Below are positions 38,183 through 61,471 of a DNA stretch of 64,000 bases, in pieces. The notes under the pieces were generated by a model that was not told the origin of the DNA, searched no databases, and saw nothing but the letters and a program-made list of their open reading frames with translations. This DNA is from Hymenobacter convexus (lineage in GTDB: Bacteria; Bacteroidota; Bacteroidia; Cytophagales; Hymenobacteraceae), in assembly GCF_030580955.1 (NCBI RefSeq), contig NZ_JAUQON010000006.1, forward strand, positions 310,001-374,000. The letters run 5' to 3'. A program made the translations under genes and the position numbers. Position 1 is the stretch's first letter. Every line of letters begins with the position of its first letter.

Positions 38183-38256
38183 GGTTGTGTAGCTCAATTG
38201 GATAGAGCATCTGACTACGAATCAGAAGGTTTAAGGTTCGACTCCTTACACGACCA
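38183..38256 (+). tRNA. tRNA-Arg (anticodon ACG)
   Basis: The acceptor stem GGTTGTG/CACGACC has one U-G pair. The D arm is GCTC...GAGC, the anticodon arm TCTGA-CTACGAA-TCAGA gives anticodon ACG (38217-38219), and the T arm is TAAGG-TTCGACT-CCTTA. The CCA end is not encoded. Length is 74 bases. A tRNA 3' end is a common integration site, and the mobile element begins just downstream. Confidence 0.97.
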
Positions 38257-38260
38257 CTAG

Positions 38261-40311: not shown

Positions 40312-43300
40312 ATGGCCGAACTCTACACCCAGGACACTCCCGCCCAGGAACCCACCACCCCGACTGCACCGCCCGACTTCAAGGCCAAGCGCAGTAAATT
40401 CCTAGCCAAATTTACCGAGCTTGATGGCGGGGAACCGCTGGACGACGCCAAGTTGGAGGCCATTCTGACCGACGACACGAAGCGCGACGAGTTCGTGCAG
40501 TACGTGGGCCAACTCAATCCGAAGTTCAAGATGAGCGGGCAGGAGCTAACGGATGCCCTCGGCTATAAAAAAAAAGTGCAGTCCGTCGATGGTGGGATGC
40601 CCTCTGCCGCTACGCCGGGGACTGCCTCAGTGGTGGCAAATGGTCTGCCGGGCGATAGGCCGTTTGAGCAAGTAGCCACTGACGCCGCGCCCCTGCCCGG
40701 GCTTACTCCCGCCCAGCCCTACGACGCCTTGGCCGCCCTCAACGGTGCGCCGGATGCCACCGAGCAAGTATTCCCGGCTTCGTTCACCGGCCCGCGCCCG
40801 GCGGGCACCTACCAGAAGCGCGAGGACTCGGGCACGGTGGCCGAGGGCACCGAATACCTTTCCCCCGCCTCGCAGGCCGGCCAGCTCAACCCCGAGCAGG
40901 CACCAGCCGCCCCGCAGGAATCGTTTCTCTCGGCCTTGGGCAAGAACATCGGCAACATTCCCGGCGACCTGGTGCGCGCAGGCGGCAACGCCCTCGACTA
41001 CCTCGGCGACGTTAACCAGAAATACCTTACCCCCAAGTCCGACGTGGCCCCCGGCTACGAGGACGAAGTGGGCGTGGTCACCGACAACAAGCCCTCGGAC
41101 CAAATGGGCGCGACGATGCGGGACGCGGGCGAGAGCATCAAGTTCAAAATCGCCGACAACGCCCGCAAGAGTGTGCTGGACGACCCCACGAACGGCGCGG
41201 CATGGGGCAACCTACTCGGGCAGGGCGCAAACTCCATTGTACAGGTTGGCGCGGCATCACTGGCAGGCGGGCCGCTGGGTGGCGTGACGATGGGCGGCGC
41301 GCTCGGCATTAGCTCCACCAAGGATGCCGCCCGTCAGGCCGGGCTGAGCGAAACCGAGGCCATGTACACGGCCACCGCCCTCGCTCCGATTCAGGGCGTT
41401 TTGGAAGAAATGGGCGCGGGCATCATCACCAAGAACAAGGCCATCACGGGGCTACTCACCAAAACCATCGTGGGCCGGGCACTGGCCGAGGGCGGCGGCA
41501 AGCTCACCCAATCGGCCCTCGCCAAGTCCGTGGCCGCTATTCTGCCGGGCGTGGTGAAATCCGCCGCCAGCCACGGCGCAGGCGAGGCCGTGACGGAGTT
41601 CCTGCAAGGGGAGGCCGAAGGCATTGCCCAACTCACGGCGGATAAGGTGCGCGGCAACAGTTCAGCCCCAGCCGGTAAGGGCCGCTACGGCACCACGGCT
41701 TACGACGCGCTCGTGAAAAGCCCGCTGGAACAGGCCATCGGTGGCTTCGCAGCCGGTGGGCTTGCCAGCACCGCCTTCCACGGCGAGCACCCCCCCGAAG
41801 CCCCGGCCGACGAGCAAGTGGTACAGCGCCGTCGCGCGCCCGAAGGCACCGCCCCCATCACCGCTGACCGCCCGGCCGCCCGGCTGCTGGGCAAGGCCGT
41901 GGTGGTGCGCGACGACGCAGGCATGACCCAGCTAGGCAAAATTCACCACGTCACGGGCACAGGCGAGAACCGCGCCATCATCGTGCGCGATACAAACGGC
42001 AAGCTCAGCAAGCACGCCCAAAGCAACGTTTTCACTACCTCTCCAACCAAAGCTCCTACCCCGGCTCTACCCGCCACCCCACGCACTGACCCCGGGCCTA
42101 CCCGCGACCCGATTCCAACCAACTCCCGCCCGCAAGCAGCCGAAACCCAAACTGTGAATTTCACAGAAAGGGCAGACGTAAGCGCGGGCGGGAATAGTGC
42201 AGTAAGCGGCCCCACCTTGGGCGAGTTGGTGCCTGAGTCTGCCACCGAGGCCGCGCCGCTCGACCTGAATATGGGCGGGCAGCCAGTACGAGCTTTTCGT
42301 AATGCCGAGGGCGACGTGGAGCTGCACCACGCCGACGGGCAAATCAGCGTGCTCGACAAAGGCCAACAGTTCGACCACCCGGCCACCGACTTCCTGCTGG
42401 ATGCCACGCCGACTGCTCCCCAATCTCGCGGCGCAAAAGTGAGCCGCGAGAATAACGCCAAGCCAAGCGCCATCAAGCCCGGCGACACCGTGAGCGTGGG
42501 CGGGCTCGACCTGCCCATCGAGGACGTGACGCGCAACGCAGCCGGCGAGATTGACGCCGTGATGGTGACGGGTAAGAACGGCAGCCGCATCATCGTAGCC
42601 AACAACCCCGACGGCAAGGCCGCCCTGGCTGAGCTGAACGCCCGCGAAGTGATGACGGGAATCCCGTCATCACTGACAGTCAATAACTTATCAGAAAGTA
42701 ACCCCGACTCACAACCAACTGAACCACAGGGCCAAGTCAAAAGTGAGCCGGCTAAACCCGTGCCCACCTACGGCACGCCCAGCGCCAACCGGGAGGCCGG
42801 AGCGTTCCAAAAAGACGGGCGAACCTACACCCGCCAGGAGCCCATCGGTTCCCGTGCCGTTCAGGGCAGAGCGTCCACGGCCACCTTTGCCGACGGGGTA
42901 AATGTCCCCGTGCGCTACGCACTCATCGAAGCCGACGAGTTGCAACCCTCGCACACCGGGGGCAGCCAAAACCTCAACCACTTTCTTCCCGAGGCCCAAC
43001 CCAAAAACCGCAGCGCCGCCTTCGACCAAGCCAGCCAGGTAGCGATTGACAACATCGCCGCCAACCCCGACGTGGCCCAGCTCGCGCAATCCCCCACCGC
43101 GTATGCCGGGGCGCCCATCATCAACGGCCGGGGCGAAATCATCCAAGGCAATGGCCGGGGCGAAGGCATCCGGCAGCACTACCGCCAGGACGGCAAGGCT
43201 TACCGCAAGGGCGTTCTGAAAGAGGCGCAGGCCGTGGGCATCGACCCCGCGCAGGCCGCCGCCATGAAAAAGCCCGTGCTTGTGCGAATCGCCGACGTGA

Positions 43301-46300
43301 GCGACGCGAAAGCACGCGAGCTAGGCAACTACACCGCCGCCGACACCGAGAGCGGTGGGACGCGCCGTTTGGACGTGAAGCAGGCAGCCGGGCGCATGGA
43401 CCCCGAAGCCCGCGCCGACCTCGGCCGCTTGCTCACCCCGCCCGAAGGCGGCACCCTGACCGAAGCCATCCGCGCCAACGAGGGAGCCGTGCTGCGCTTC
43501 CTGCAAAAGCACCGCCTCGCCAACACCACCCAACTCCAAACCCTGTTCCGGCCCGACGGCACGCTGACCCCGAACGGCGTGGAAGACATTACCGCCCTCC
43601 ACCGTCAACTGCTATTCGCGGAGGGCGACCCCAACCTGCCCGAGCTGTTCCAGGAGCTGCCCGCCGCCGCGCAGAACGGCCTAGACCGCGCCGCTGGCTA
43701 TCTGGCCGGCGTGGCTGACGAGAAAAGCCTGACGCCTGAAATTCAGAACGCCATTGCCGGCGTCCACGAGTACCGCAACAGCGGCGCGTCGTTCTCCATC
43801 TGGACGCGCACCCCCAACCTGTTCGCCCCCGACGGGCAGCGCACCCCCGCCGAGCGGTATTCCCCGTTGGAGCTGGCCCTGATTAAGTTGCTTGCCGAGG
43901 AAAAGCGCCCGACGCACATTGCCAAGGCGTTTGCGCAGTACGCCTACGCCGCCAACGGCAACCCCTCCACCCTGTTTGACCCCACGCCCGCGCTGAGCCG
44001 GGCCGATGCCGTACAAAAAACCTTCTCCGTAACCGATGAAAACCCCCAAAACACCCCAGGAGCGCAAGGCGCGACTCGACCAAGTGCTGCCGACGGGCGA
44101 CCCGCGCCATCCCCGACACGAGGAATGGAAGGCCCGGCAGAAAACGCACAGCGCACCACACAACCTGATGCTGCAAATCCTCAACAGCCAGGACGAAACA
44201 CGCCCGCAGAACAACTAGACAGCCCCGCCGCCAAGCGTCAGGCCGCCCTCGACAAGATTAAAGCCCGCCGCGCACAACAAAACGGCCCGACCAGCGTTAG
44301 CGAAAAATTCACCCAAGATTATAAACTCCGTGAAGGCGAACCCGAAAGCATCCGAGAAACCGGCCACCAAGCCCTCGCCGCCGCCGAAAAAGCAGGTCGT
44401 AGAGGGAAAGGGCGGCTTCTGCCCACAGACGGGAATGATAGTGGAGAGCTTCGCCCCCTACGAAATGACGCCAACCCCGGCGCCCCGCTCAACCGGGCGG
44501 CGGCGGAAATAACCCAATCCGACATATCCGCCGACCTGCGCGACAAGGGTTCGGCCGTCTTCGTGGGGCGCATCATCAAGACCGTTAAGGACTTGGCAAC
44601 AATGGCACAGGTCATGCGTGACCCGCGCTGGGAAACATTCAAGTATTACTTCGTCAAGAAGCTGGCCGATGGCAGCGAGGAAATCGTGGGCGAGAGCACC
44701 ATGTCGGCCCGTATGCCCGGCACCGCGCCCGGCTTCCCGGACGCTTCCCAGCGCGGCGGCGCCTCGGCGGCCGACTGGCTAAAGCAGCAGATGGCCTCCC
44801 ACGGGGCAGACGGTTACTATTGCCAGCACAACCACCCCTCGGGCAATACCGGCGCCTCGCAGGCTGATATTGATTTTACCCAGTTTGTTGTTGAGAACGT
44901 GCCCGGCTTCAAGGGGCACATAATCATCAATCACAAGAGATACGGCCTGATAACTGCCAGTAAAGTAGGCGGCAAGACAACGCTGTACGTGGAGGAATCC
45001 AAACTCCTTCCCGGCGCGTGGAGCAACGAAACGTACTCCTTCACCGAAGACCCGCTACTTCAACCCTCGATACCCGGCCCGTTGCTGGGGCGCAACATTA
45101 CCAGCGCGTTGGACATGGCACGCCTGAGCAAAGAATTAGAGCAACGCAAGGACATTGTGCATCTGGTTGGACGTGGCACTAATGGGCGGGTGAAGGCCAT
45201 TGGTCGGATGCCGTTGGCAACGCTCGTGGGCTACGCCAAATTAGGGACTGCACCCGGCCGGGCACGCGGCGAGGCGGCGATTCGCAAGTTTGCGCGGGAC
45301 ACGGGCTCGCCCCACGTTATCCTTGTCAACCTGCCAAAGCCCAAAGGCAAGTTTGCGGCTTACATGGACAAGCCGAAAGACGGGGCCTATATCGCTCCTA
45401 ATGAGTACAACATAAGGTCGCTGATTGAAAAAGGCGTGCTATTCGACGCGCTGGACGTTACCGGCAAAACGTTGCGCGGTGAGATAAGTCAAGACCCCTT
45501 CGGAAAAAAAATTAGTGCGGACTGGATTGGACCAACGCCCGTTCCCCGTGTGTGGGAGGAATTGGCACCCTACGGCGTTTCCGACGAGGACATGGCCGAC
45601 TACCGCACCGTGTTGGAGAGCTACGCTGACGAAGGCGTGGTGAGCGGCAAGGAAATGCGCGCCCGCTTCCGCACCGACGTTGGCACTGAGGCCGAAACCG
45701 GCGTGAGCAACGAAGCCCTGAAAGCCATGGTGAGAGAGGTGCAGCAGAGCGCCGGCATCGTGCCCAAACTGAAGCCTGGCAAACAGGCGCTAAAGGCCCG
45801 CAAGCACGCCGAACGCTACGACCAAGCCACCCGCGAGAGCTTCACCGAGGACCAGGCCAAGTATATGCCCCGCAGGGTCGTAGAGAATCGTGCAGATGCC
45901 GACGCCTACATTCGGCAGGTGGGCATTGAGAACGCCTACGCCGTGGCACTGGACCGCCCCGAAGGCATCAGCGCGGCCGACCACATCGAGATTCAGGAAG
46001 CTGTGGCCGTGGCCTACCGCAAGCTGAGCGACGAGGCGCGCAAGGCTGGCAACCCCGAGCAGGGTGAGGAATTTTGGCAGAAGTCGAAGGACGCCCGCGC
46101 AGCTAAGGCAAACAGGCTGACCGAAGCAGGCCAGAGCCTTGCACAAGTAGCTGGCTTTGTAGCCGATGACCCCGACAGTGTGTTGGATTTGGCTATAAAG
46201 GAAACCGAAAAACTCCGCAAACCTAAGCTGGCAAAGGCTGAGAAAGCCGGTGCTCGCGTGGCCGACATTGCCACCCGTGAGCGCCAGTCGGCCATGAAGG

Positions 46301-49248
46301 AGGCCCTGAAAGCGCCCGCCGTTCAGAAAGCGCGGGAGGCTGTGACAGCCCCGAAAGCCCAGCTTGCGCCGGTTGAGAAGCCAATTGTGGAACCCACTGG
46401 TTATGGCGCTTCTAATCGTTTTTTCACAAAAGCCAAAGCTGCTGAGGCCCGCGCCGCCCTGCGCAAGTTGGGTCTGTCGAGCTTTATTCCGCCCGAACTT
46501 ATCCACCTCGTCGGCTATCACTTGGAAGCCGGCACCCGTGGATTTGCCGACGTGAGCCGCAGAATCACGCGAGAAATCGGCGCACGTTACAAGGACTTGC
46601 TGCCCGCCGCCTACCAGACTGCCTGCGAACAGTTCGTGGCAAAGGGCGGCAAAAACGAGGGCTTCACCGAGCCCGCCGAAGTAGCCGCGTTGGTGGCCCC
46701 TGGTGCCGTGCGGAAGGGCATGAAGTCGCTCGGCACGACCTTGGATAAGATAGCCCGTGAGCAGGCCGCAGGCATTGGGCCTAAAGGAAAGACGCTGGCC
46801 GAACGCTTCGCCGCCGAGGCGGCCCTTGACCCGAAGGACGCGGCCACTTACGCCGCCGCCATCGAGAAGGAGTTCACCGCGCAGGTACACGCCCGTAAGG
46901 CCAAGCTGCGCACTCGCATCCTGACCTTCTCAACGCGGGTGCTTTTGGGCCGCAACGCCGCAACGGCCGTGGATAAGCTGCTCAACACCCTGAACCTGGC
47001 GGTGGACCCTACCAGCGCCGCCGACTTGTTGAAGGCCCAGCTCAAACTCCCGAACATCACGCCCGAGCAGGCCGACAAGTTCGTGAAGCTGGCCGAAGCC
47101 GTGCGCAACGCCAAGCCCGGCAACCAACGCGCAGACCGCGTGCAAGACCTGATGCGCGAGCTGGGTCGGTTGGAGGACGTGGATTGGAGCACCGCCGCGC
47201 AGGCCATGTGGTTCGCTAACACCCTGAGCGGCCCGCTTACTCACGTTACGAACGTGGTCAGCAACGCCCACCAAGGGATTGCCGAAACCGCCATTTCCGT
47301 GCTTCATACATGGGCGAGCACCGGCTCCCTGAAAGCCGCCACCGGCCCGCTGCGGGGCGTCGGGCGGGCACAGCAACGAGCATGGGCCGAGGCTGCCCGC
47401 GTGGTGAAAACCGGATATTCTGGCCCCGGCAATGAGAAGTTTGACGCTGGCGGCAAGAACTATCTGGAAAACAAGCAGTTCTCAGGCATTGCTACACCGC
47501 TGAACTCGTTGAAATACGTGCAGCGGGCACTCGTGGCCGAGGACAACTATGCTTCGTACACCTTGCAGGGCCTGAGGGCGTGGGAGGTTGCTATCAAAGA
47601 AGCCTACCGCGAGGTGCGCAAAGACTCCGGCCTGAGCGGCGAGAAGCTGAACAGCGCCGGCCTCTATGAACGGGCATACTCTGCTGCCCTCGGCAAGCTG
47701 TACGGCATTGACGGGCTCCACGCCGCCGCCGATAGCCAGGCCGACGCGGAGAACCTGACCGGCAAAGCCAAGCAGGCCCGCGTGATGGAACTCGTGAACG
47801 AAGCCGTGCAGTCACGCCTCGACGGGTGGGAGCAGCAGGCCGAAAGCGAAGGGCTCGCGGGCCTCGACAAAGCGCAACGGGTTGGAGAATTGCAGCAGGA
47901 GGCCATGCCCGCCAATATTGTCGCTGACGCTCAGCAGTTCGCCAAGGAAAACACGTTCAACGATGGACTACCTGGCACCGTGGGAGCGTTCGCCAGCCTC
48001 GTTGGCAAGGTCGGGGATATTCCCGTTGTCGGCCTGCCCATCCTGCGCATAGTGGCCCCCTTCACGCGCATTGCCGCCAGCGTACTTGACCGCCACCTTG
48101 ACTACACCGCATGGGGCTTGGTGCGTGCCGTTCGCGGCAGCCACGGTCCCAAAGAGTTTGGCGGTGGCAAGCACTTCCGCGAGCTGACCGTGGAGCAGCG
48201 GCAGAAAAGCGCCACCCGCGCCATCCTCGGCACCGTCGGGGCGCTCACCCTCTACGGAATGGCAAGGGCCGGGCAAATTGTCCTGACCGGGGGCTACCAG
48301 AACGACAAAGACAAGGAAGAACAGGAGCCCGAGTACAGCATCAAATTTCCCAACGGCTTGTTCGTAAGCTACAAGGGCTGGCCCGTGGAACTGGAACTTG
48401 CCACCATCGGCAACCTGCTTGACTATGACCGTCGGCAGGCCAAGAAAGGCAAGCCGGCCGGTGACGGGAAGCGCATGGCCGTGGCCCTCGCGTTGATTGC
48501 CCAATACTCGGCGAGCGTTGGCCCGTCTACCGGGTTAGACCAGTTCACCAAGGGCATCCTCGACGCCTCGCGCAGCCCCGACCAGAGCATGAAGTACTTC
48601 GCACGCTTCGGGGCCAACGCCGCCAAGAACATGGTGCCGCTCGCGGCCCTTGACGGACAGATGTTGCGTGGATTCAATATCCTACGCGGCGAGAACGTGA
48701 AGGAAACCGTTTCCGATGATGCGTGGTCGGCCGCGCACAATTCCTTGGTCGGTGATTTGCCTTGGCTGCGCGACTCGGCCGAAGATGCGATTGACGTGTT
48801 CGGCCAGCCAATGCGATTGAGCAGTACGCGCCTGTGGGGCTTCCTCCCCGAAGAACGCACCCCGGCTGACCAAGCCAACCTCGACTTCCTGGCTGAGCGC
48901 GGGCTGATGCCGAAGCGTTGCCGCATCACCGACCCCTCGCTGAGCATCTTCGACGGCCAGAAGCAGCGGCCCCCGTCGGGGGCGGAGTTCAAGGTACTCA
49001 TGGTGGCTCGCGGAAAATTCTTTCGCGACGGGTTGCGGGCCGCTATGCTCAAACCCAGCGAAGCCCCCGGCCTGCCTACCGCCACGCGCAACGCGATTCT
49101 GGCAGCCGGCTCGGACGCAAATATGACCCTGCGGGAGATGCCCGCCGCCCTCGCGCAGAAGGTGGTGCAGCGCCTCCGCAAGAACTCGATAGCAGCGGGC
49201 AAAGAGGCGGTACTTGCCGCGTATCAGCCGAAGCCGCCCATTAAGTAG
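40312..49248 (+). CDS. Giant polyvalent protein with ParB-like and RadC/JAMM domains
   Basis: A 2978-residue multidomain protein. The N-terminus (1-190) is Pro/Thr-rich and a Gly/Ala-rich hydrophobic segment lies at about 300-490 (VQVGAASLAGGPLGGVTMGG). A DdrB-like ParB domain spans about 820-1240 (NGRGEIIQGNGRGEGI). A RadC-type JAB/JAMM domain lies around 1450-1560 with H1506-x-H1508-x7-S1516-x2-D1519 in the HNHPSG motif, so its metal site is intact. A related stretch at about 1600-1700 lacks the ligands. A long C-terminus (about 2030-2978) contains two likely membrane segments near 2560-2680. This is the architecture of polyvalent proteins of phages and conjugative elements, often delivered with the DNA. 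Two small genes may be nested at 44036 and 44330. Confidence 0.85.
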   Translation: MAELYTQDTPAQEPTTPTAPPDFKAKRSKFLAKFTELDGGEPLDDAKLEAILTDDTKRDEFVQYVGQLNPKFKMSGQELTDALGYKKKVQSVDGGMPSAATPGTASVVANGLPGDRPFEQVATDAAPLPGLTPAQPYDALAALNGAPDATEQVFPASFTGPRPAGTYQKREDSGTVAEGTEYLSPASQAGQLNPEQAPAAPQESFLSALGKNIGNIPGDLVRAGGNALDYLGDVNQKYLTPKSDVAPGYEDEVGVVTDNKPSDQMGATMRDAGESIKFKIADNARKSVLDDPTNGAAWGNLLGQGANSIVQVGAASLAGGPLGGVTMGGALGISSTKDAARQAGLSETEAMYTATALAPIQGVLEEMGAGIITKNKAITGLLTKTIVGRALAEGGGKLTQSALAKSVAAILPGVVKSAASHGAGEAVTEFLQGEAEGIAQLTADKVRGNSSAPAGKGRYGTTAYDALVKSPLEQAIGGFAAGGLASTAFHGEHPPEAPADEQVVQRRRAPEGTAPITADRPAARLLGKAVVVRDDAGMTQLGKIHHVTGTGENRAIIVRDTNGKLSKHAQSNVFTTSPTKAPTPALPATPRTDPGPTRDPIPTNSRPQAAETQTVNFTERADVSAGGNSAVSGPTLGELVPESATEAAPLDLNMGGQPVRAFRNAEGDVELHHADGQISVLDKGQQFDHPATDFLLDATPTAPQSRGAKVSRENNAKPSAIKPGDTVSVGGLDLPIEDVTRNAAGEIDAVMVTGKNGSRIIVANNPDGKAALAELNAREVMTGIPSSLTVNNLSESNPDSQPTEPQGQVKSEPAKPVPTYGTPSANREAGAFQKDGRTYTRQEPIGSRAVQGRASTATFADGVNVPVRYALIEADELQPSHTGGSQNLNHFLPEAQPKNRSAAFDQASQVAIDNIAANPDVAQLAQSPTAYAGAPIINGRGEIIQGNGRGEGIRQHYRQDGKAYRKGVLKEAQAVGIDPAQAAAMKKPVLVRIADVSDAKARELGNYTAADTESGGTRRLDVKQAAGRMDPEARADLGRLLTPPEGGTLTEAIRANEGAVLRFLQKHRLANTTQLQTLFRPDGTLTPNGVEDITALHRQLLFAEGDPNLPELFQELPAAAQNGLDRAAGYLAGVADEKSLTPEIQNAIAGVHEYRNSGASFSIWTRTPNLFAPDGQRTPAERYSPLELALIKLLAEEKRPTHIAKAFAQYAYAANGNPSTLFDPTPALSRADAVQKTFSVTDENPQNTPGAQGATRPSAADGRPAPSPTRGMEGPAENAQRTTQPDAANPQQPGRNTPAEQLDSPAAKRQAALDKIKARRAQQNGPTSVSEKFTQDYKLREGEPESIRETGHQALAAAEKAGRRGKGRLLPTDGNDSGELRPLRNDANPGAPLNRAAAEITQSDISADLRDKGSAVFVGRIIKTVKDLATMAQVMRDPRWETFKYYFVKKLADGSEEIVGESTMSARMPGTAPGFPDASQRGGASAADWLKQQMASHGADGYYCQHNHPSGNTGASQADIDFTQFVVENVPGFKGHIIINHKRYGLITASKVGGKTTLYVEESKLLPGAWSNETYSFTEDPLLQPSIPGPLLGRNITSALDMARLSKELEQRKDIVHLVGRGTNGRVKAIGRMPLATLVGYAKLGTAPGRARGEAAIRKFARDTGSPHVILVNLPKPKGKFAAYMDKPKDGAYIAPNEYNIRSLIEKGVLFDALDVTGKTLRGEISQDPFGKKISADWIGPTPVPRVWEELAPYGVSDEDMADYRTVLESYADEGVVSGKEMRARFRTDVGTEAETGVSNEALKAMVREVQQSAGIVPKLKPGKQALKARKHAERYDQATRESFTEDQAKYMPRRVVENRADADAYIRQVGIENAYAVALDRPEGISAADHIEIQEAVAVAYRKLSDEARKAGNPEQGEEFWQKSKDARAAKANRLTEAGQSLAQVAGFVADDPDSVLDLAIKETEKLRKPKLAKAEKAGARVADIATRERQSAMKEALKAPAVQKAREAVTAPKAQLAPVEKPIVEPTGYGASNRFFTKAKAAEARAALRKLGLSSFIPPELIHLVGYHLEAGTRGFADVSRRITREIGARYKDLLPAAYQTACEQFVAKGGKNEGFTEPAEVAALVAPGAVRKGMKSLGTTLDKIAREQAAGIGPKGKTLAERFAAEAALDPKDAATYAAAIEKEFTAQVHARKAKLRTRILTFSTRVLLGRNAATAVDKLLNTLNLAVDPTSAADLLKAQLKLPNITPEQADKFVKLAEAVRNAKPGNQRADRVQDLMRELGRLEDVDWSTAAQAMWFANTLSGPLTHVTNVVSNAHQGIAETAISVLHTWASTGSLKAATGPLRGVGRAQQRAWAEAARVVKTGYSGPGNEKFDAGGKNYLENKQFSGIATPLNSLKYVQRALVAEDNYASYTLQGLRAWEVAIKEAYREVRKDSGLSGEKLNSAGLYERAYSAALGKLYGIDGLHAAADSQADAENLTGKAKQARVMELVNEAVQSRLDGWEQQAESEGLAGLDKAQRVGELQQEAMPANIVADAQQFAKENTFNDGLPGTVGAFASLVGKVGDIPVVGLPILRIVAPFTRIAASVLDRHLDYTAWGLVRAVRGSHGPKEFGGGKHFRELTVEQRQKSATRAILGTVGALTLYGMARAGQIVLTGGYQNDKDKEEQEPEYSIKFPNGLFVSYKGWPVELELATIGNLLDYDRRQAKKGKPAGDGKRMAVALALIAQYSASVGPSTGLDQFTKGILDASRSPDQSMKYFARFGANAAKNMVPLAALDGQMLRGFNILRGENVKETVSDDAWSAAHNSLVGDLPWLRDSAEDAIDVFGQPMRLSSTRLWGFLPEERTPADQANLDFLAERGLMPKRCRITDPSLSIFDGQKQRPPSGAEFKVLMVARGKFFRDGLRAAMLKPSEAPGLPTATRNAILAAGSDANMTLREMPAALAQKVVQRLRKNSIAAGKEAVLAAYQPKPPIK
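44036..44218 (+). CDS. Possible nested small gene (60 residues) inside the giant gene
   Basis: It lies in the +1 frame relative to the giant gene. The predicted protein is basic and hydrophilic (MKTPKTPQERKARLDQVLPT at its start). By my count about 47 of 61 third positions are G or C, against about 27 of 61 in the giant frame over the same bases, although the giant frame is GC3-rich on both sides. This suggests that the small frame is, or was, coding. Its ATG overlaps an ATGA in which the third frame would stop. No homologue recognised. Confidence 0.4.
   Translation: MKTPKTPQERKARLDQVLPTGDPRHPRHEEWKARQKTHSAPHNLMLQILNSQDETRPQNN
44330..44512 (+). CDS. Second possible nested small gene (60 residues) inside the giant gene
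   Basis: A GTG-started frame in the same alternative frame as the gene at 44036. It encodes a Lys/Pro-rich N-terminus and a segment GGFCPQTGMIVESFAPYEM. Third-position GC is about 78 percent, against about 57 percent for the giant frame there. The giant protein reads as a low-complexity linker at this point. Alternatively, compensating frameshifts have occurred. No homologue recognised. Confidence 0.35.
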   Translation: MKANPKASEKPATKPSPPPKKQVVEGKGGFCPQTGMIVESFAPYEMTPTPAPRSTGRRRK

Positions 49249-49942: not shown

Positions 49943-50023
49943 AATTTTTATCCGTACCTTTATGGAGTCAAAAGCACCTGATTTCAGGTGACCGCGATTT
50001 CAAAACCCAACCCTTCCTACCCT

Positions 50024-50473
50024 ATGTTACACACAACCCATCAGCTCATAGGCGAATTTGCTTGCCAACTTCCGCCCGACTTCGACCTGAATAATTGGAT
50101 TGAGCAACGCGCCGATTCTAGGGCCAATCAAAAACTCGAAGCCCTCTTATTGCAACAGGAGCAGGAGCGCGAGCGAGCCGTGCGCCGCAGTTCCAGCGAA
50201 ATGGCCGAGCGATACGGCGTCAGCCTGAAGCGTATTCAGGAGTGGGCGCGCAACGGCATTTTGAAGGCGGAACGCCCCACGGGCGGCTTCGGTCACTGGT
50301 CTTACCTAACCGGCCCGTGCGATGATGCCGTGAACCGCCTGCGCCGGCCTGACGGAACCATCAAGGGGAGTTGGAGGGGCGTGGGCCACACAAACAAAAA
50401 GGCGCGTAGTGACCCACACCACAAAAAAGCAGGGGCCGCCGAAGCGAACCCCGACCAACCCCTGACTTTGTAA
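50024..50473 (+). CDS. Helix-turn-helix DNA-binding protein
   Basis: A 149-residue protein. A MerR/excisionase-like winged helix-turn-helix lies at about 45-95 (SSSEMAERYGVSLKRIQEWARNGILKAERP), and the tail is basic (NKKARSDPHHKKAGAAE). It may act as a regulator or recombination directionality factor. The frame is open from 49988, but MLHTTHQLIGEF at 50024 is the first ATG with a clear upstream region. It precedes the Rha gene by 61 bases. Confidence 0.7.
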   Translation: MLHTTHQLIGEFACQLPPDFDLNNWIEQRADSRANQKLEALLLQQEQERERAVRRSSSEMAERYGVSLKRIQEWARNGILKAERPTGGFGHWSYLTGPCDDAVNRLRRPDGTIKGSWRGVGHTNKKARSDPHHKKAGAAEANPDQPLTL

Positions 50474-51425: not shown

Positions 51426-52904
51426 ATGATTCAACAGCAATTTCTTGTGCCATCCAGCATCGACATACCCGCCATACTTTCTGGCTTGGGGTACAGCGAA
51501 CGGTACATTTACGACCACCAGGACAAGTTCAATTACATTTTGCACCTCATAGAGGAACGCAAGGTGTTCGACTCGTCCATTGAATCAGGTGGATATTCAT
51601 GCCTTCACCTTGACACAGTGCGCTCGGTCATTGGAAGTCGCTATGCTAGCGAGGTTATTAAAACCCTGCTACGGAAGGGAATCATCCAGTGCGACGGGAA
51701 GAAGCTGTACGGCGACTACGGGTCTAAGTCCTATGGCTACCGCATCCACCCAGACTTTGAGTCGAAGGCAATCCTGCGAAACGTTTTCAAGGATGAAACA
51801 ATGGGCAAGAAGCTACGCGAAAGAGCACTCAGTTACAAGCAGAGGCATTCAAGGTCGCTCAGGTGGAAGCACCTAACAAAGCTGCGCATACGCACAACAG
51901 AAGCGCTAGAACACATAGATGCCAAACTCAACGCATCCCTTGACATACTCGACAGCCACCAAACGGAAACACAGGTGCCGATGCTCAGAGAAAACAGAAA
52001 GGCCATAGAGGAAGCGTGCCAAAAAATAACAGAGGCTTTCAGGGAGCAGGAACAAGGGGAAAGGAAGGAAAGAACCCCCACACCCACACCCTACTCCCTT
52101 ATTCCGCTACAATTGATAATAAATGCCACGCTTAGCCATGATAATCAATGTGTTAATCTTGACAAATACCTGCGAAGCTTGTTGTACGGCAAGTATAATA
52201 GTGACCTGCGCAGCATTCAAAAACTAGCAGTGAGCGATTTCTTTATTGAGCAGCCAGACCCTGAGAGCCGCGTTTTCACAAACCTAAGCAACCTAAGTGG
52301 ACACCTTCGCCAGTTCCTCTACCACTCGGAGCATGTACGCAAAGAATTGATTAATCTGGACATTCGCAACAGCCAGCCTTACCTGTTCTCCCTGCTGCTT
52401 ATGGATAAATACCGTGGAGGCATCGTACCCGACAGCGTGTCTCACTATATCGCGCTCACCGCCAATGGAGAGTTCTACGAACACATGATGGAGCTGATGG
52501 GCCTTCCATTGGATTCTACCGACAAGGCCCAGCGTATCGCCTTTAAAAAGAGGTTTTTTGCTACTCTGTTCTTCTGCAAAACCCAAACTTCAAAAGCAAG
52601 CGCCGAAGGCAAGGTGTTCCGCGCTCATTTCCCCGAAGTCGCCGCTCTAATCGACCTCTACAAAGAGCGGGGTTACGAGCAGTTAGCCATCACGATGCAG
52701 CGCAGAGAGGCAGGCGTTATTCTCAAAACAATCTCTGCTCAACTCGCACAAGAAGGCATCTGGCACGCCACCATCCATGATTCGGTAGTTGTACTGAGAG
52801 AGCACCAGGAGAACGTGAAGGCGCTGATTATTCAAGCGTTTTTAATTAGTGTGGGCGTGGCGCCCACCGTGAAACCAGAGCAATTGAATCCGTATTTCGT
52901 ATAA
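51426..52904 (+). CDS. Minimal family A-like polymerase (putative replication protein)
   Basis: A 492-residue protein. Residues 1-230 are helical and basic with no family recognised; the rest resembles the fingers and palm of family A polymerases. Motif A is LDIRNSQPYLF (D312). The motif B helix has R370-x3-K374-x3-F378-x3-F382, the spacing of R754-K758-F762-Y766 in the O helix of E. coli Pol I. Motif C is ATIHDSVVV (H451-D452), like the HDS of T7 RNA polymerase and the HDE of Pol I. The SRVFTNLSNL...LRQFL stretch (281-298) fits the conserved segment before motif A. There is no exonuclease domain. It sits next to an origin-like repeat array, which suggests a role in replication. Assignment is by motif only. 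Confidence 0.6.
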   Translation: MIQQQFLVPSSIDIPAILSGLGYSERYIYDHQDKFNYILHLIEERKVFDSSIESGGYSCLHLDTVRSVIGSRYASEVIKTLLRKGIIQCDGKKLYGDYGSKSYGYRIHPDFESKAILRNVFKDETMGKKLRERALSYKQRHSRSLRWKHLTKLRIRTTEALEHIDAKLNASLDILDSHQTETQVPMLRENRKAIEEACQKITEAFREQEQGERKERTPTPTPYSLIPLQLIINATLSHDNQCVNLDKYLRSLLYGKYNSDLRSIQKLAVSDFFIEQPDPESRVFTNLSNLSGHLRQFLYHSEHVRKELINLDIRNSQPYLFSLLLMDKYRGGIVPDSVSHYIALTANGEFYEHMMELMGLPLDSTDKAQRIAFKKRFFATLFFCKTQTSKASAEGKVFRAHFPEVAALIDLYKERGYEQLAITMQRREAGVILKTISAQLAQEGIWHATIHDSVVVLREHQENVKALIIQAFLISVGVAPTVKPEQLNPYFV

Positions 52905-53483
52905 CTAATGCGGCAATGTGCTGGCCTCTTTACTTTTCGCCCATCCTTGGCCGCCTTACCCATCAACAGGCGGTTTACATTGCGCTCAACCATCCAATCA
53001 AGCCCTCAGCGGCCGGCCCTTCATTGGGTTGGCCGTTTTTAGTTGCCACAATACTGTAACGTCTTCGCCTTATTTCCATACAATGCAGATTCAGTTCACT
53101 ACTTTGTTGTAACATACCGACCATCCTGGCTGCCTTGTCACTTAACCTGCGGTTTAGTCTCCCCTGAAACGAGGCAATCCACCAACGGTGGATTCCACCT
53201 CTCATGGATTCCATCAACGGTGGATTGTGGTGCAATTCCTGCCCACAAAGTCCAACTACCGCTATCCGTGGTAAAAGTGGCGGCAGTTCAATCGGCACAA
53301 TTTTACGCCGACCTCACCGAGCCTTAACATCAGCCTTAACATTTTGCATTATCCGCCTTAACATTTTGCACTTTACGTACTTAGGTTAACCAAAAACCAA
53401 CCTACGCATGGTTTCTGTCACAGTTATCCCGGTTTTGTGGCCTTCCCTTGAGTTTATGCCACAGTTACTCGCCGACCCTATCC

Positions 53484-54088
53484 GCACTACGCTCCGAGGG
53501 ATGGAGCACTACGCTCCGAGCCCCCTTGGAGCGATACCCTCCGGGCTATCCGCGATACCCTCCGAGGGGATGGAGCGATACCCTCCATGCCCCAACTCAG
53601 ACCTTACCGAAGTGGTAACGTTACCTTACCGAAGTGGTAATGTTTGAAAGTGGTAAAAAGTCCTCAAAAGTGGTAAAAAAGAATTTACCAGTTTGGTAAA
53701 AAGTGGGCCAGAGGGTAAACATGCGGTTGACCGGGGGTAATCAATTTGCACTATTCCGCAATGTTTACCCTAAACAATTTGCATTATCGCGGAATGATTA
53801 CCCTTGTCTGAGGGAGGGGGGTTTAAAGGGGGGTTAAGCGGGGTGCGTAAGGGGGGTTAGAAGGGGTGCGTAACCCCAGCGGGTCGGGCAGGGTGTGCTA
53901 GGGGGGGGGGGGGGTAGGACAGGGTGTCCCACGGGGTAGGACCGGGTGTCCCGACTCGACCACTATGGACACCCTGTCCCAAGGGTATGGACACCCTGTC
54001 CCGAGTGGCAGGGGTGCCGCACTACGCTCCACCCCCTCCCCACTACGCTCCACGGGGTAACCGTTGGTTAAGGGGTAACCGTTGGTTA
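53484..54088. repeat. Helically phased iteron arrays, likely replication origin
   Basis: Several repeat families occur, mostly at 16-25 base spacing. GC(A/G)(C/A)TAC(G/C)CTCC occurs at 53484, 53506, 53531, 53552, 53575, 54019 and 54040. GTGGTAA-type iterons lie at 53612, 53634, 53650, 53670 and 53693. GGACAGGGTGTCCC-type copies are at 53917 and 53939, and their inverse TATGGACACCCTGTCCC is at 53964 and 53986. GGGGTAACCGTTGGTTA occurs at 54054 and 54072. A dyad (GGGTAATCA at 53735-53743 and TGATTACCC at 53795-53803) encloses ATTCCGC/GCGGAAT. This is the look of an iteron origin beside a replication gene. Function is inferred. Confidence 0.6.
53810..53960. repeat. G-tract-rich stretch with a run of 14 G
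   Basis: Several runs of three to six G lie on the plus strand (for example GGGAGGGGGG at about 53811) before a run of 14 G at 53901-53914. It could form G-quadruplexes or cause polymerase pausing. The exact length of the G run may also be affected by sequencing. Confidence 0.5.
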
Positions 54089-54163
54089 CGGCGCCGGAAC
54101 TGACAGTCGAGCTTAAAAATCTCGCGGTGCAAGAATGTTTCGCCAGATTTATTTGTTGTAAAC

Positions 54164-54253: not shown

Positions 54254-54403
54254 ATGGCAACCAACGCAATTCCAGCCGGCCTTCTCCGCGCTTCCTCATA
54301 TGCCAAGGCGAATAACATGAGTCGCCAACAGGTGTACCGTTGGATTAATAATGGCATGCTTACTAGTCGTGTAATTGATGGCGTATGGTTCGTTAAACCA
54401 TAA
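54254..54403 (+). CDS. 49-residue helix-turn-helix protein
   Basis: A short gene, ATG to TAA, encoding a MerR/excisionase-type HTH (MSRQQVYRWINNGMLTSRVI, then GVWFVKP). The recognition-helix pattern, short wing and size match excisionases and small DNA-binding phage proteins. A good promoter lies upstream. It may act as an excisionase, but no integrase was recognised, so a regulatory role is equally possible. Confidence 0.75.
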   Translation: MATNAIPAGLLRASSYAKANNMSRQQVYRWINNGMLTSRVIDGVWFVKP

Positions 54404-56609: not shown

Positions 56610-57383
56610 ATGTCGATGCAGCTTGCGATATTCAAATACGAAGACAAGGAAGAGGAACAACCCTTAAGCGAGTTGACCACGATAGATATTGATGGCGAAC
56701 CGTGGTTTGTTGCGAACGAGATATGCGCGCTTCTGGACATCAAAAATCCGCGAGATGCTGTTGCGTCGCTTGATGATGACGAAAAGCTAGTGTCGGCTTT
56801 ACCGACATCAGGCCAGGTCAGAAATGTTAACATTGTGAATGAAAGTGGTTTATACACGCTCATTTTTCGCAGTAACAAGCCGAGCGCCAAGAAATTTCGC
56901 AAGTGGATTACCAATGTAGTGCTGCCCACTATTCGCAAAACGGGTGCTTTTGGGGTGCCTAGGAGCCCCCTCCCCATATTTGTCACTCGTTACAACGATA
57001 ACTGGGACCGCACCTCACGAGGCCACTTTTCAGTTATCAGCGAACTGTTCATCCGCCTTTATGGTCGTTTTGAGCAAATAGGGTATCGCATCCCCGATAA
57101 GGCATTTGCAACGGGCGCCGAAATTCGCCCTGACGTGAGTGTGGGCCGGGGGTTCTCGGCATTCTTAACCGCGCATCACCCATCCGTGGCCGACAACTAT
57201 ACCAGGTACTCGCACCGCTTTCCCAACGGCAGCGAAGTGCAGGCCCGTCAGTACCCCAATGAATTATTGCCACTATTCATTCAGTACATTGATAATCATT
57301 GGCTGCCTAATAGCGCACCTAAGTATTTCCTAGACCGCGACAGGGCCGCGTTAGATTACCTACCCAAACTGTTGGAAAGGTAA
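56610..57383 (+). CDS. Bro-N domain antirepressor-like protein
   Basis: A 257-residue protein. The Bro-N domain (about 22-115) has PWFVANEICALLDIKNPRDA, DEKLVSALP and VNIVNESGLYTLIFRSNKP, then AKKFRKWITNVVLPTIRKTG. The C-terminal half (about 130-257) has a separate conserved-looking fold with IRPDVSVGRGFSAFL, ARQYPNELLPLFIQYI and YFLDRDRAALDYLPKLL, which I could not name. Bro-N proteins act as phage antirepressors or in defence, including abortive infection proteins such as BstA (which uses a KilA-N domain). Confidence 0.82.
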   Translation: MSMQLAIFKYEDKEEEQPLSELTTIDIDGEPWFVANEICALLDIKNPRDAVASLDDDEKLVSALPTSGQVRNVNIVNESGLYTLIFRSNKPSAKKFRKWITNVVLPTIRKTGAFGVPRSPLPIFVTRYNDNWDRTSRGHFSVISELFIRLYGRFEQIGYRIPDKAFATGAEIRPDVSVGRGFSAFLTAHHPSVADNYTRYSHRFPNGSEVQARQYPNELLPLFIQYIDNHWLPNSAPKYFLDRDRAALDYLPKLLER

Positions 57384-60031: not shown

Positions 60032-60289
60032 GTGCCCAATGGGGCCGAAAATTGTGCTGTGCCCATGATGTTTGACCAAGGGGGCTGCCGACAGAAGGCC
60101 ACGGTTCACGGGCAATCCGAATCCCCAAACCCGGTCCCCTCCAAACGCTTGCCGGTGGGGGTGTCGGCGAATAAACAGCTTCTTTCTATTGGCTCAGCCT
60201 GCCACCCGTCAGCAGGGCAACGGGCGGGGCACTGGTAGGTAGGGTGCGGGCAACGATGACGGCAAGGGCAAGAGGGCAAAGGCAGCGAG
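60032..60289. other. Noncoding region near the right end of the element
   Basis: No supported gene or clear repeat. Composition does not favour the open frames present. Confidence 0.4.
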
Positions 60290-60463
60290 GTGTTCCCGCT
60301 CATCGAATACGCCCGCCACAACGGCACGTACTACGTGGGCAGCCGCACCGGCCAAGCCTTGCCCGAGGTCGATGCATGCAGCGCCTACGAGGTCGTAGCC
60401 GTGAACACGGAAATGGCTTGGGAACTCGCCGGCCGTTGGGCTGACAACGCCTGCCTGAACTAA
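60290..60463 (+). CDS. Small gene or gene fragment (57 residues)
   Basis: A GTG-started frame encoding FPLIEYARHNGTYYVGSRTG then AYEVVAVNTEMAWELAGRWA and ending NACLN. Third positions are rich in G and C, so the frame looks coding. It is short, and an upstream TGA lies at about 60256, so it may be a fragment of a larger phage gene. No family recognised. Confidence 0.4.
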   Translation: MFPLIEYARHNGTYYVGSRTGQALPEVDACSAYEVVAVNTEMAWELAGRWADNACLN

Positions 60464-60472
60464 ACCACCGAC

Positions 60473-60503
60473 TGCGCCCCAATCAGCATTAGACTGGGGC
60501 GCA
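60473..60503 (+). terminator. Hairpin after the small gene
   Basis: TGCGCCCCA (60473-60481) and TGGGGCGCA (60495-60503) pair perfectly. No strong U-tract, so only a probable terminator. Confidence 0.5.
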
Positions 60504-60587
60504 CAGGGCCGCGACACTTTTACCGCCTCCGGCTGCGTTGTAGCCGCTCGAAGTGTTGTCCAGCATTCGGTAATCGGCCACGCGCAA

Positions 60588-60625
60588 AGCCCCTCCCGGT
60601 TTGTTCCGTGGAGGGGCTTTTGTTT
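60588..60625. terminator. Terminator near the element's right junction
   Basis: AAAGCCCCTCC and GGAGGGGCTTTTGTTTT pair around 13 bases. It could end transcripts from the element or from the truncated DUF4297 gene, which it directly follows on the minus strand. Confidence 0.7.
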
Positions 60626-60646
60626 TAAACTAATCGCAACGACACG

Positions 60647-61036
60647 CATACCTGCGCTCACGCGGGCGGCATCGTCCCGCAACAGGCTGGGGATGGAGCC
60701 CGGGGCGGCGGTGGCCGTCGTGATGAGGGCCAGCCGGGTGCGCAGGGGGTCCCACTGCTGCTTCTGCAACAAGTCGCCCCAGACCCGAAGCGTCTTCCAC
60801 CAGTCGGTGCTGCGATTCGACAAGACCGCCTGCCGTTTGGTGCTCAGGTGGTGCTTGAGCTGCTGGAGTTCGGTCGCCGTCGCGCTTTGCATCTCCACGT
60901 CGTCCAGCCCTTCCAGGATGAGGGCGGACTCTTCGCCATAGGCCGTGAGCAGGGCGTAGAGCGCATACTGGGCTTGGTAGAGGTAGCTCAACGCCTGGGG
61001 ACCGGCAGCGGCTGAAAAGGAAGCACTCATGTGCAT
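60647..61036 (-). pseudogene. DUF4297-like defence nuclease, N-terminal fragment
   Basis: About 130 codons remain. The N-terminus has AGPQALSYLYQAQYALYALL, then ALILEGLDDVEMQ, LQQLKHHL and DWWKTLRVWGDLL. This is the pattern of the DUF4297/Cap4-type nuclease domain (PD-(D/E)xK fold, with D/E in GLDDVE and the lysine in QLKHH) found in CBASS and ABC-three-component defence systems. After LLRDDAARVSAGM the frame runs into unrelated DNA at about 60,647, so the gene is cut. It lies downstream of the RHS immunity gene on the same strand. Confidence 0.55.
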
Positions 61037-61075: not shown

Positions 61076-61471
61076 TTATTCGCTAAAAGAAATGCATATA
61101 TAATCGTATGAACTTTTAAAATCGGTGAAGTACTCAACTACCATCCCATTGTGCGTGATGCGCTCTTGAAGACTATTAAGTCCAGTTAAGTGTATGAATG
61201 CGCGCTTGAGCAAGCTGTAGTCAGGGTCAGCATATCTACTGGACACGTTTATGTTTTTTAGAAATTGATTATGAAAAACGTAGTTACAAGCCAAGTTCAT
61301 ATCTGGCTGATTATCAACTGGCACAAATGAGAATGTTTTCCAATTTTCATTATCAACAACCAAAGTCAGTTTGCCTTTTTGCTTGATTTTGATTAACGAG
61401 TCTTGGGACGTTGATGCGTCAAATTTTTCGTTGTAGATGATAAACTCACCCTTAAAGATGTTGATTGTCAT
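61076..61471 (-). CDS. Probable immunity protein for the RHS toxin
   Basis: A 131-residue protein, AT-rich, unlike the GC-rich RHS gene. It has MTINIFKGEFIIYNEKFDAS at the start, mixed beta and alpha structure, and no signal peptide. The ATG overlaps the RHS stop by four bases (ATGA), the usual layout of toxin and immunity genes in polymorphic toxin loci. Family unknown; the role is inferred from position and composition. Confidence 0.65.
   Translation of the reverse strand: MTINIFKGEFIIYNEKFDASTSQDSLIKIKQKGKLTLVVDNENWKTFSFVPVDNQPDMNLACNYVFHNQFLKNINVSSRYADPDYSLLKRAFIHLTGLNSLQERITHNGMVVEYFTDFKSSYDYICISFSE

Follow-up and report, generated by a model that had tools for sequence, protein, structure and literature searches.

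A polymerase-like gene in an element integrated at tRNA-Arg

The DNA analysed here is a 64-kb window (64,000 nucleotides) of the Hymenobacter convexus genome, of which positions 38258–64000 form the left part of an integrated element; the remainder, integrase included, lies beyond the window. The integration site is a tRNA-Arg(acg) gene (38183–38257, plus strand), whose last 15 bp at the 3′ end recur at the far end of the element (C15:385889–385903, equivalent to window position 75889 and outside the window). This repeat lies directly beyond a tyrosine integrase gene on the minus strand (C15:384478–385719), and delimits an element of ~37.6 kb.

The gene under study (51426–52904, plus strand) has an ATG start and an in-frame stop upstream, and encodes a polymerase-like protein of 492 residues. 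Directly upstream is a Rha-type phage regulator (50535–51308, plus strand), and a noncoding repeat array follows downstream. Other plus-strand genes of the element encode a 2978-aa polyvalent-type protein (40312–49248), with a weak RadC-like match and a ddrB-like ParB domain of the type reported from phage-type polyvalent proteins (PMC5512222); a 161-aa protein with a weak terminase-small-subunit match at E 2e-4 (49988–50473); and a BRO-N antirepressor-type protein (56610–57383). A protein encoded on the minus strand (60209–61036) has a weak Cap4-nuclease-like match, at E 0.001 under the Pfam cut-off, and its gene is possibly an element-borne defence gene. From window position 61468 on, two very large ORFs of 2179 and 1267 aa (C15:371468–381838; L033:7468–17838, minus strand) match LRR, PA14, DUF6443 and RHS-repeat families and resemble a polymorphic surface or secreted cargo protein. 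The parts of the element that were scanned showed no recognisable helicase or primase. The sole Terminase_6N match in the genome is on a different contig, so the element appears phage-derived or satellite-like, not a complete prophage of that type. The phage-like mobile setting proposed for the gene in a preliminary description of this DNA, made from the sequence by itself, is thus borne out by the tyrosine integrase and the phage-type genes.

The protein is predicted to contain a Pol I-type palm

Attempts to identify the fold from sequence alone failed with Pfam, NCBIfam, PHROGs and the PDB: by phmmer and profile searches the 492-aa protein had no Pfam, NCBIfam or PDB match, the PDB profile search returning noise only. 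The DNA_pol_A model PF00476 did not match it either, and reached one of 27 family members at E 0.013; in a scan of the bacterium's own genome the same model found the host Pol I alone, in one canonical copy. No exonuclease family of Pfam or NCBIfam was matched, in line with the earlier description of the protein as exonuclease-less.

The AlphaFold2 model was of high confidence (mean pLDDT 90.1, pTM 0.87). In a Foldseek search of the PDB with this model the leading matches were Pol I-type polymerases (best E 3.1e-7, probability 1.0), and by VIA the best match had a Z of 14.2 and an rmsd of 4.4 over 270 aligned residues, spanning model residues 143–491. Apicoplast Pol, Pol theta, T7 DNA polymerase and Klenow aligned at Z 12–14 over 270–300 residues, and together the polymerase matches cover model residues from about 130 to 492. 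No T7-type or mitochondrial RNA polymerase was among the Foldseek and VIA matches listed, though one may be present elsewhere. The structure prediction that had been proposed as a check thus returned a Pol I-type palm. An HMM alignment to the host Pol I pairs R370/K374/F378/F382 with RRKAKTVNFGIIYG, Q425 with PIQGTAAD and H451-D452 with VHDE; as it scores weakly (E 0.046), the case for kinship to Pol I is a structural one.

The palm/fingers region comprises residues ~270–492 (52233–52901, plus strand) and includes R282, D312, K374, Q425 and H451-D452. The motifs D312, R370-x3-K374-x3-F378-x3-F382 and H451-D452 lie where they had been placed by eye. We aligned homologues in two sets, of 27 and 25 sequences, that extend down to ~20% identity. 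Residues R282, D312, Q317, Y351, K374, E428, H451 and D452 are invariant in both, among them the three (D312, K374, D452) singled out beforehand for this comparison, and R370 is retained in 22/27 and 23/25. Invariance across such divergent homologues indicates that the motifs are not due to chance and are under strong constraint. With a Pol I-type palm/fingers and a conserved motif A Asp, motif B R-x3-K and motif C His-Asp, the protein falls within the family A fold superfamily. Model and alignments support the earlier description of a minimal family A palm that keeps its catalytic residues and has no exonuclease. Like DNA polymerase I (PF00476), the host enzyme included, it has the palm/fingers fold and motifs A, B and C; unlike it, it has no exonuclease domains and no PF00476 match, carries a winged helix, and has a D-x4-Q motif A and HDS in place of HDE.

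A predicted winged-helix domain precedes the palm

For the N-terminal half, previously left unassigned, the model suggests a winged helix (residues 1–~120; 51426–51785, plus strand) followed by a helical region (about 123–268). When residues 1–126 were folded alone, the secondary structure was as in the full model (pLDDT 85). The VIA neighbours of this domain are winged-helix proteins, among them Fur, LexA, the C-termini of MCM and ORC, and, at Z 5.5–5.9, the RepA-type plasmid initiators 4pql, 5kbj and 1hkq. With Z values of 5.5–7 overall and weak Foldseek E-values, the winged-helix class is a reasonable assignment that implies no particular family. The likeness to winged-helix plasmid initiators (RepA, Rep) is accordingly at the generic level of a winged-helix N-terminus; those proteins show no sequence match to ours, which matched no known Rep family in Pfam or NCBIfam, and here the domain is fused to a PolA palm. 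The domain may bind DNA.

The family is a branch of the divPolA2 superfamily

It had been suggested that the enzyme could be poorly described, but it has described kin, being remotely related to the phage group divPolA2. In the divPolA2 proteins, which are small PolAs of phages, the palm is intact, a 3′ exonuclease is lacking and the N-terminus forms a globular domain of unassigned kind; functions as repair enzymes or RNA polymerases have been suggested for them (PMC11348598). In our full-text literature search they appeared just in that paper and its preprint. The published divPolA2 proteins are contained in PHROG 4756 (phrog_4756). We built an aligned divPolA2 profile from seven sequences, members and relatives together, and profile–profile comparison with the polymerase-like family gave E-values of 4e-10 and 2e-12; the latter alignment covers residues 62–485 and with them the second half of the winged helix. 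Compared directly, the 492-aa protein reaches PHROG 4756 at E 0.014, which is at threshold level (true members score 2e-91 and 3e-64), and is therefore homologous to the published proteins by profile–profile comparison and not a clear single-sequence member of the PHROG. Foldseek against predicted viral proteins also reached divPolA2-bearing phages (Barba, Aeromonas 2L372X); two phage proteins ranked closer, one of which carries the name putative DNA polymerase I.

Within the divPolA2 superfamily the polymerase-like proteins thus form a distinct branch, and divPolA2 is their closest described group. In both, a separate N-terminal domain stands before a small family A palm that lacks an exonuclease. 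They differ in sequence, with 17% identity in the profile alignment, and in distribution, divPolA2 occurring in phages of Vibrio, Rheinheimera, Aeromonas and other Gammaproteobacteria, whereas the present family is found on tyrosine-integrase elements, a plasmid and huge phages, mainly of Bacteroidota. They differ also in motif C, which is always HD[S/A] in the present family, and in the N-terminus, read here as a winged helix. In profile alignment, the second half of the winged helix matches the N-terminal region of divPolA2 (L070 and L064, from Rheinheimera and Vibrio phages), and on this sequence likeness the divPolA2 N-terminal domain may be a winged helix too.

Homologues are sporadic and associated with mobile elements

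At E <= 0.001, homologues occur in 29 of 149 genomes of the host's relatives. The family is sporadic, being present in 34/291 genomes of the order and 17/395 across the phylum. Fifteen loci lie in named Bacteroidota genomes (Hymenobacter, Pontibacter, Rufibacter and several Flavobacteriaceae) and 12 homologous loci in IMG/VR; the viral relatives were detected only when an alignment of close relatives served as query, a viral-contig scan with the single 492-aa protein giving no match. The genome that holds the window carries a second copy of the gene, 27% identical (G000:C17:198208–198822; L002), ~10 kb from another tyrosine integrase.

In a set of 29 copies from 16 genomes, a Phage_int_SAM_5 integrase lies within 10 kb of 10 copies, against 0.54 expected (Poisson P 4e-10), and within 25 kb of 15 against 1.3 expected; the copies are not fully independent, and these P values are indicative. 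On the named genome contigs an integrase lies <=2.4 kb from the gene in 8 of 15. A terminase is present on 4 of 6 viral records. Some relatives belong to uncultured phages of 595–735 kb; on giant-phage-type contigs a ~1,290-aa protein is encoded near the gene (L057:10783–14661, L055:3478–7374), and that of L057 has no Pfam match. In a search of 27 related loci for tRNA att repeats none were found, so that the element in the window is the only one delimited. One relative resides on a circular plasmid of Hymenobacter qilianensis that also encodes ParA and an annotated replication initiation protein, and the polymerase-like gene is therefore not the sole Rep there.

The downstream repeat array

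The noncoding array downstream of the gene (53178–54089, plus strand) is a candidate cis region of short, mostly two-copy tandem repeats and many perfect hairpins, for example GGAGC-ACTAC-GCTCC. The density of repeats reported here earlier was confirmed: the 64-kb window as a whole has 13 tandem-repeat rows, of which 8 fall in 53178–54088, and the single strand folds better than 20 of 20 shuffles (z −6.9). The further proposal that this DNA is a replication origin found no support. The sequence had no match in 88 related genomes, and the hairpin type GGAGCNNTACNCTCC occurs nowhere else in the bacterium's own genome. Beside the homologues, most loci have short intergenic gaps with few or no tandem repeats, with a few tandem repeats at L043 and L052. 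There is no DnaA box near the array, and a search for Rfam families within it lent an origin no support.

The array may be an origin, or equally an operator or terminator array. As far as the repeats themselves are concerned, we think it nearly an even call that they form a regulatory or terminator-hairpin array and not an origin. The hairpins comprise several unrelated sequences, each present about twice in tandem, and not one iteron; this composition, the lack of a DnaA box and the restriction to this locus all favour a regulatory array, as does its position, with the polymerase-like gene on one side and a short HTH-like ORF (54254–54403) on the other. Its strong structure and repeat density, in noncoding DNA next to a replication-type gene, speak against it. 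The short ORF, directly past the array, was read by eye as encoding a small HTH (excisionase-like) protein and had no PHROG match.

Possible roles of the protein

Since the host has its own Pol I, the function of the polymerase-like gene is expected to be specific to the element and not a replacement. The likeliest reading, to which we give about an even chance, is a catalytically intact-looking, exonuclease-less enzyme that joins a winged helix to a PolA palm and would serve phage-like integrative elements as initiator-polymerase or accessory polymerase. After excision of the element, the winged helix would dock the enzyme on element DNA; the palm would then make or extend a primer, or fill in DNA or gaps, and so start or support replication of the excised element. 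Several observations count against this reading. The H. qilianensis plasmid has another Rep, the scanned parts of the present element yielded neither helicase nor primase, the repeats do not accompany the gene at other loci, winged helices also occur in regulators, and the active site departs from that of Pol I in having Ser in motif C and Phe in motif B.

The same exonuclease-less palm would suit a repair or translesion, gap-filling polymerase of phages and integrative elements with no part in initiation, a reading that we consider rather unlikely. The other Rep on the H. qilianensis plasmid agrees with it, and a repair role has been proposed for divPolA2 on the grounds that those phages own a replicative PolB (PMC11348598). 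Against it, a winged helix would suggest sequence- or structure-directed loading, close relatives adjoin integrases, and the neighbours that were scanned included no recognisable repair gene.

The active site bears on a further reading, in which the protein would act as a single-subunit RNA polymerase or primase and supply the element with RNA primers or transcripts. In the alignments motif C reads HDS in 25/25 and 24/27 sequences, Ser standing in for the third carboxylate of the Pol I motif (HDE), and Ser at this position is typical of T7-type RNA polymerases. Motif A reads D-x4-Q-P-Y/F, with no evident counterpart of the Glu steric gate found in Pol I. With this motif C and no such gate, a preference for either dNTPs or rNTPs would be conceivable. 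An RNA polymerase function was raised for divPolA2 as well (PMC11348598). We nonetheless hold this reading to be improbable: the best structural matches are DNA polymerases, with no T7-type RNA polymerase among the matches listed, the motif B Tyr is replaced by Phe, and no T7-type N-terminal domain was seen. That the palm is catalytically dead and kept as a DNA-binding regulator, as the winged helix and the regulator-rich neighbourhood (Rha, BRO) might suggest, is very hard to credit, given that even very divergent homologues all keep the catalytic Asp, Lys and His-Asp, which would be needless in a dead enzyme.

Pipolins, the piPolB elements, offer a parallel to an initiator-polymerase of this kind: they are integrative, have a tyrosine recombinase and encode their own primer-independent family B polymerase (PMC7385651, PMC9710591). 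The present element likewise is integrative, with a tyrosine recombinase and its own polymerase, but that polymerase has a family A fold, and the element is accordingly no pipolin. More speculatively, and with little confidence, we suggest a family-A counterpart, in which Bacteroidota integrative elements and temperate phages would replicate with their own origin-binding winged-helix/PolA enzyme, perhaps with a primase-independent start.

The work adds a sizeable group of likely polymerases that go unnamed in the models of Pfam and NCBIfam. It connects the obscure divPolA2 proteins of phages with giant phages and with elements integrated in chromosomes, and suggests that the N-terminal domain left unassigned in PMC11348598 could be a winged helix. 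Should the protein initiate replication, initiator and polymerase would be united in one polypeptide, possibly a new enzyme for DNA amplification.
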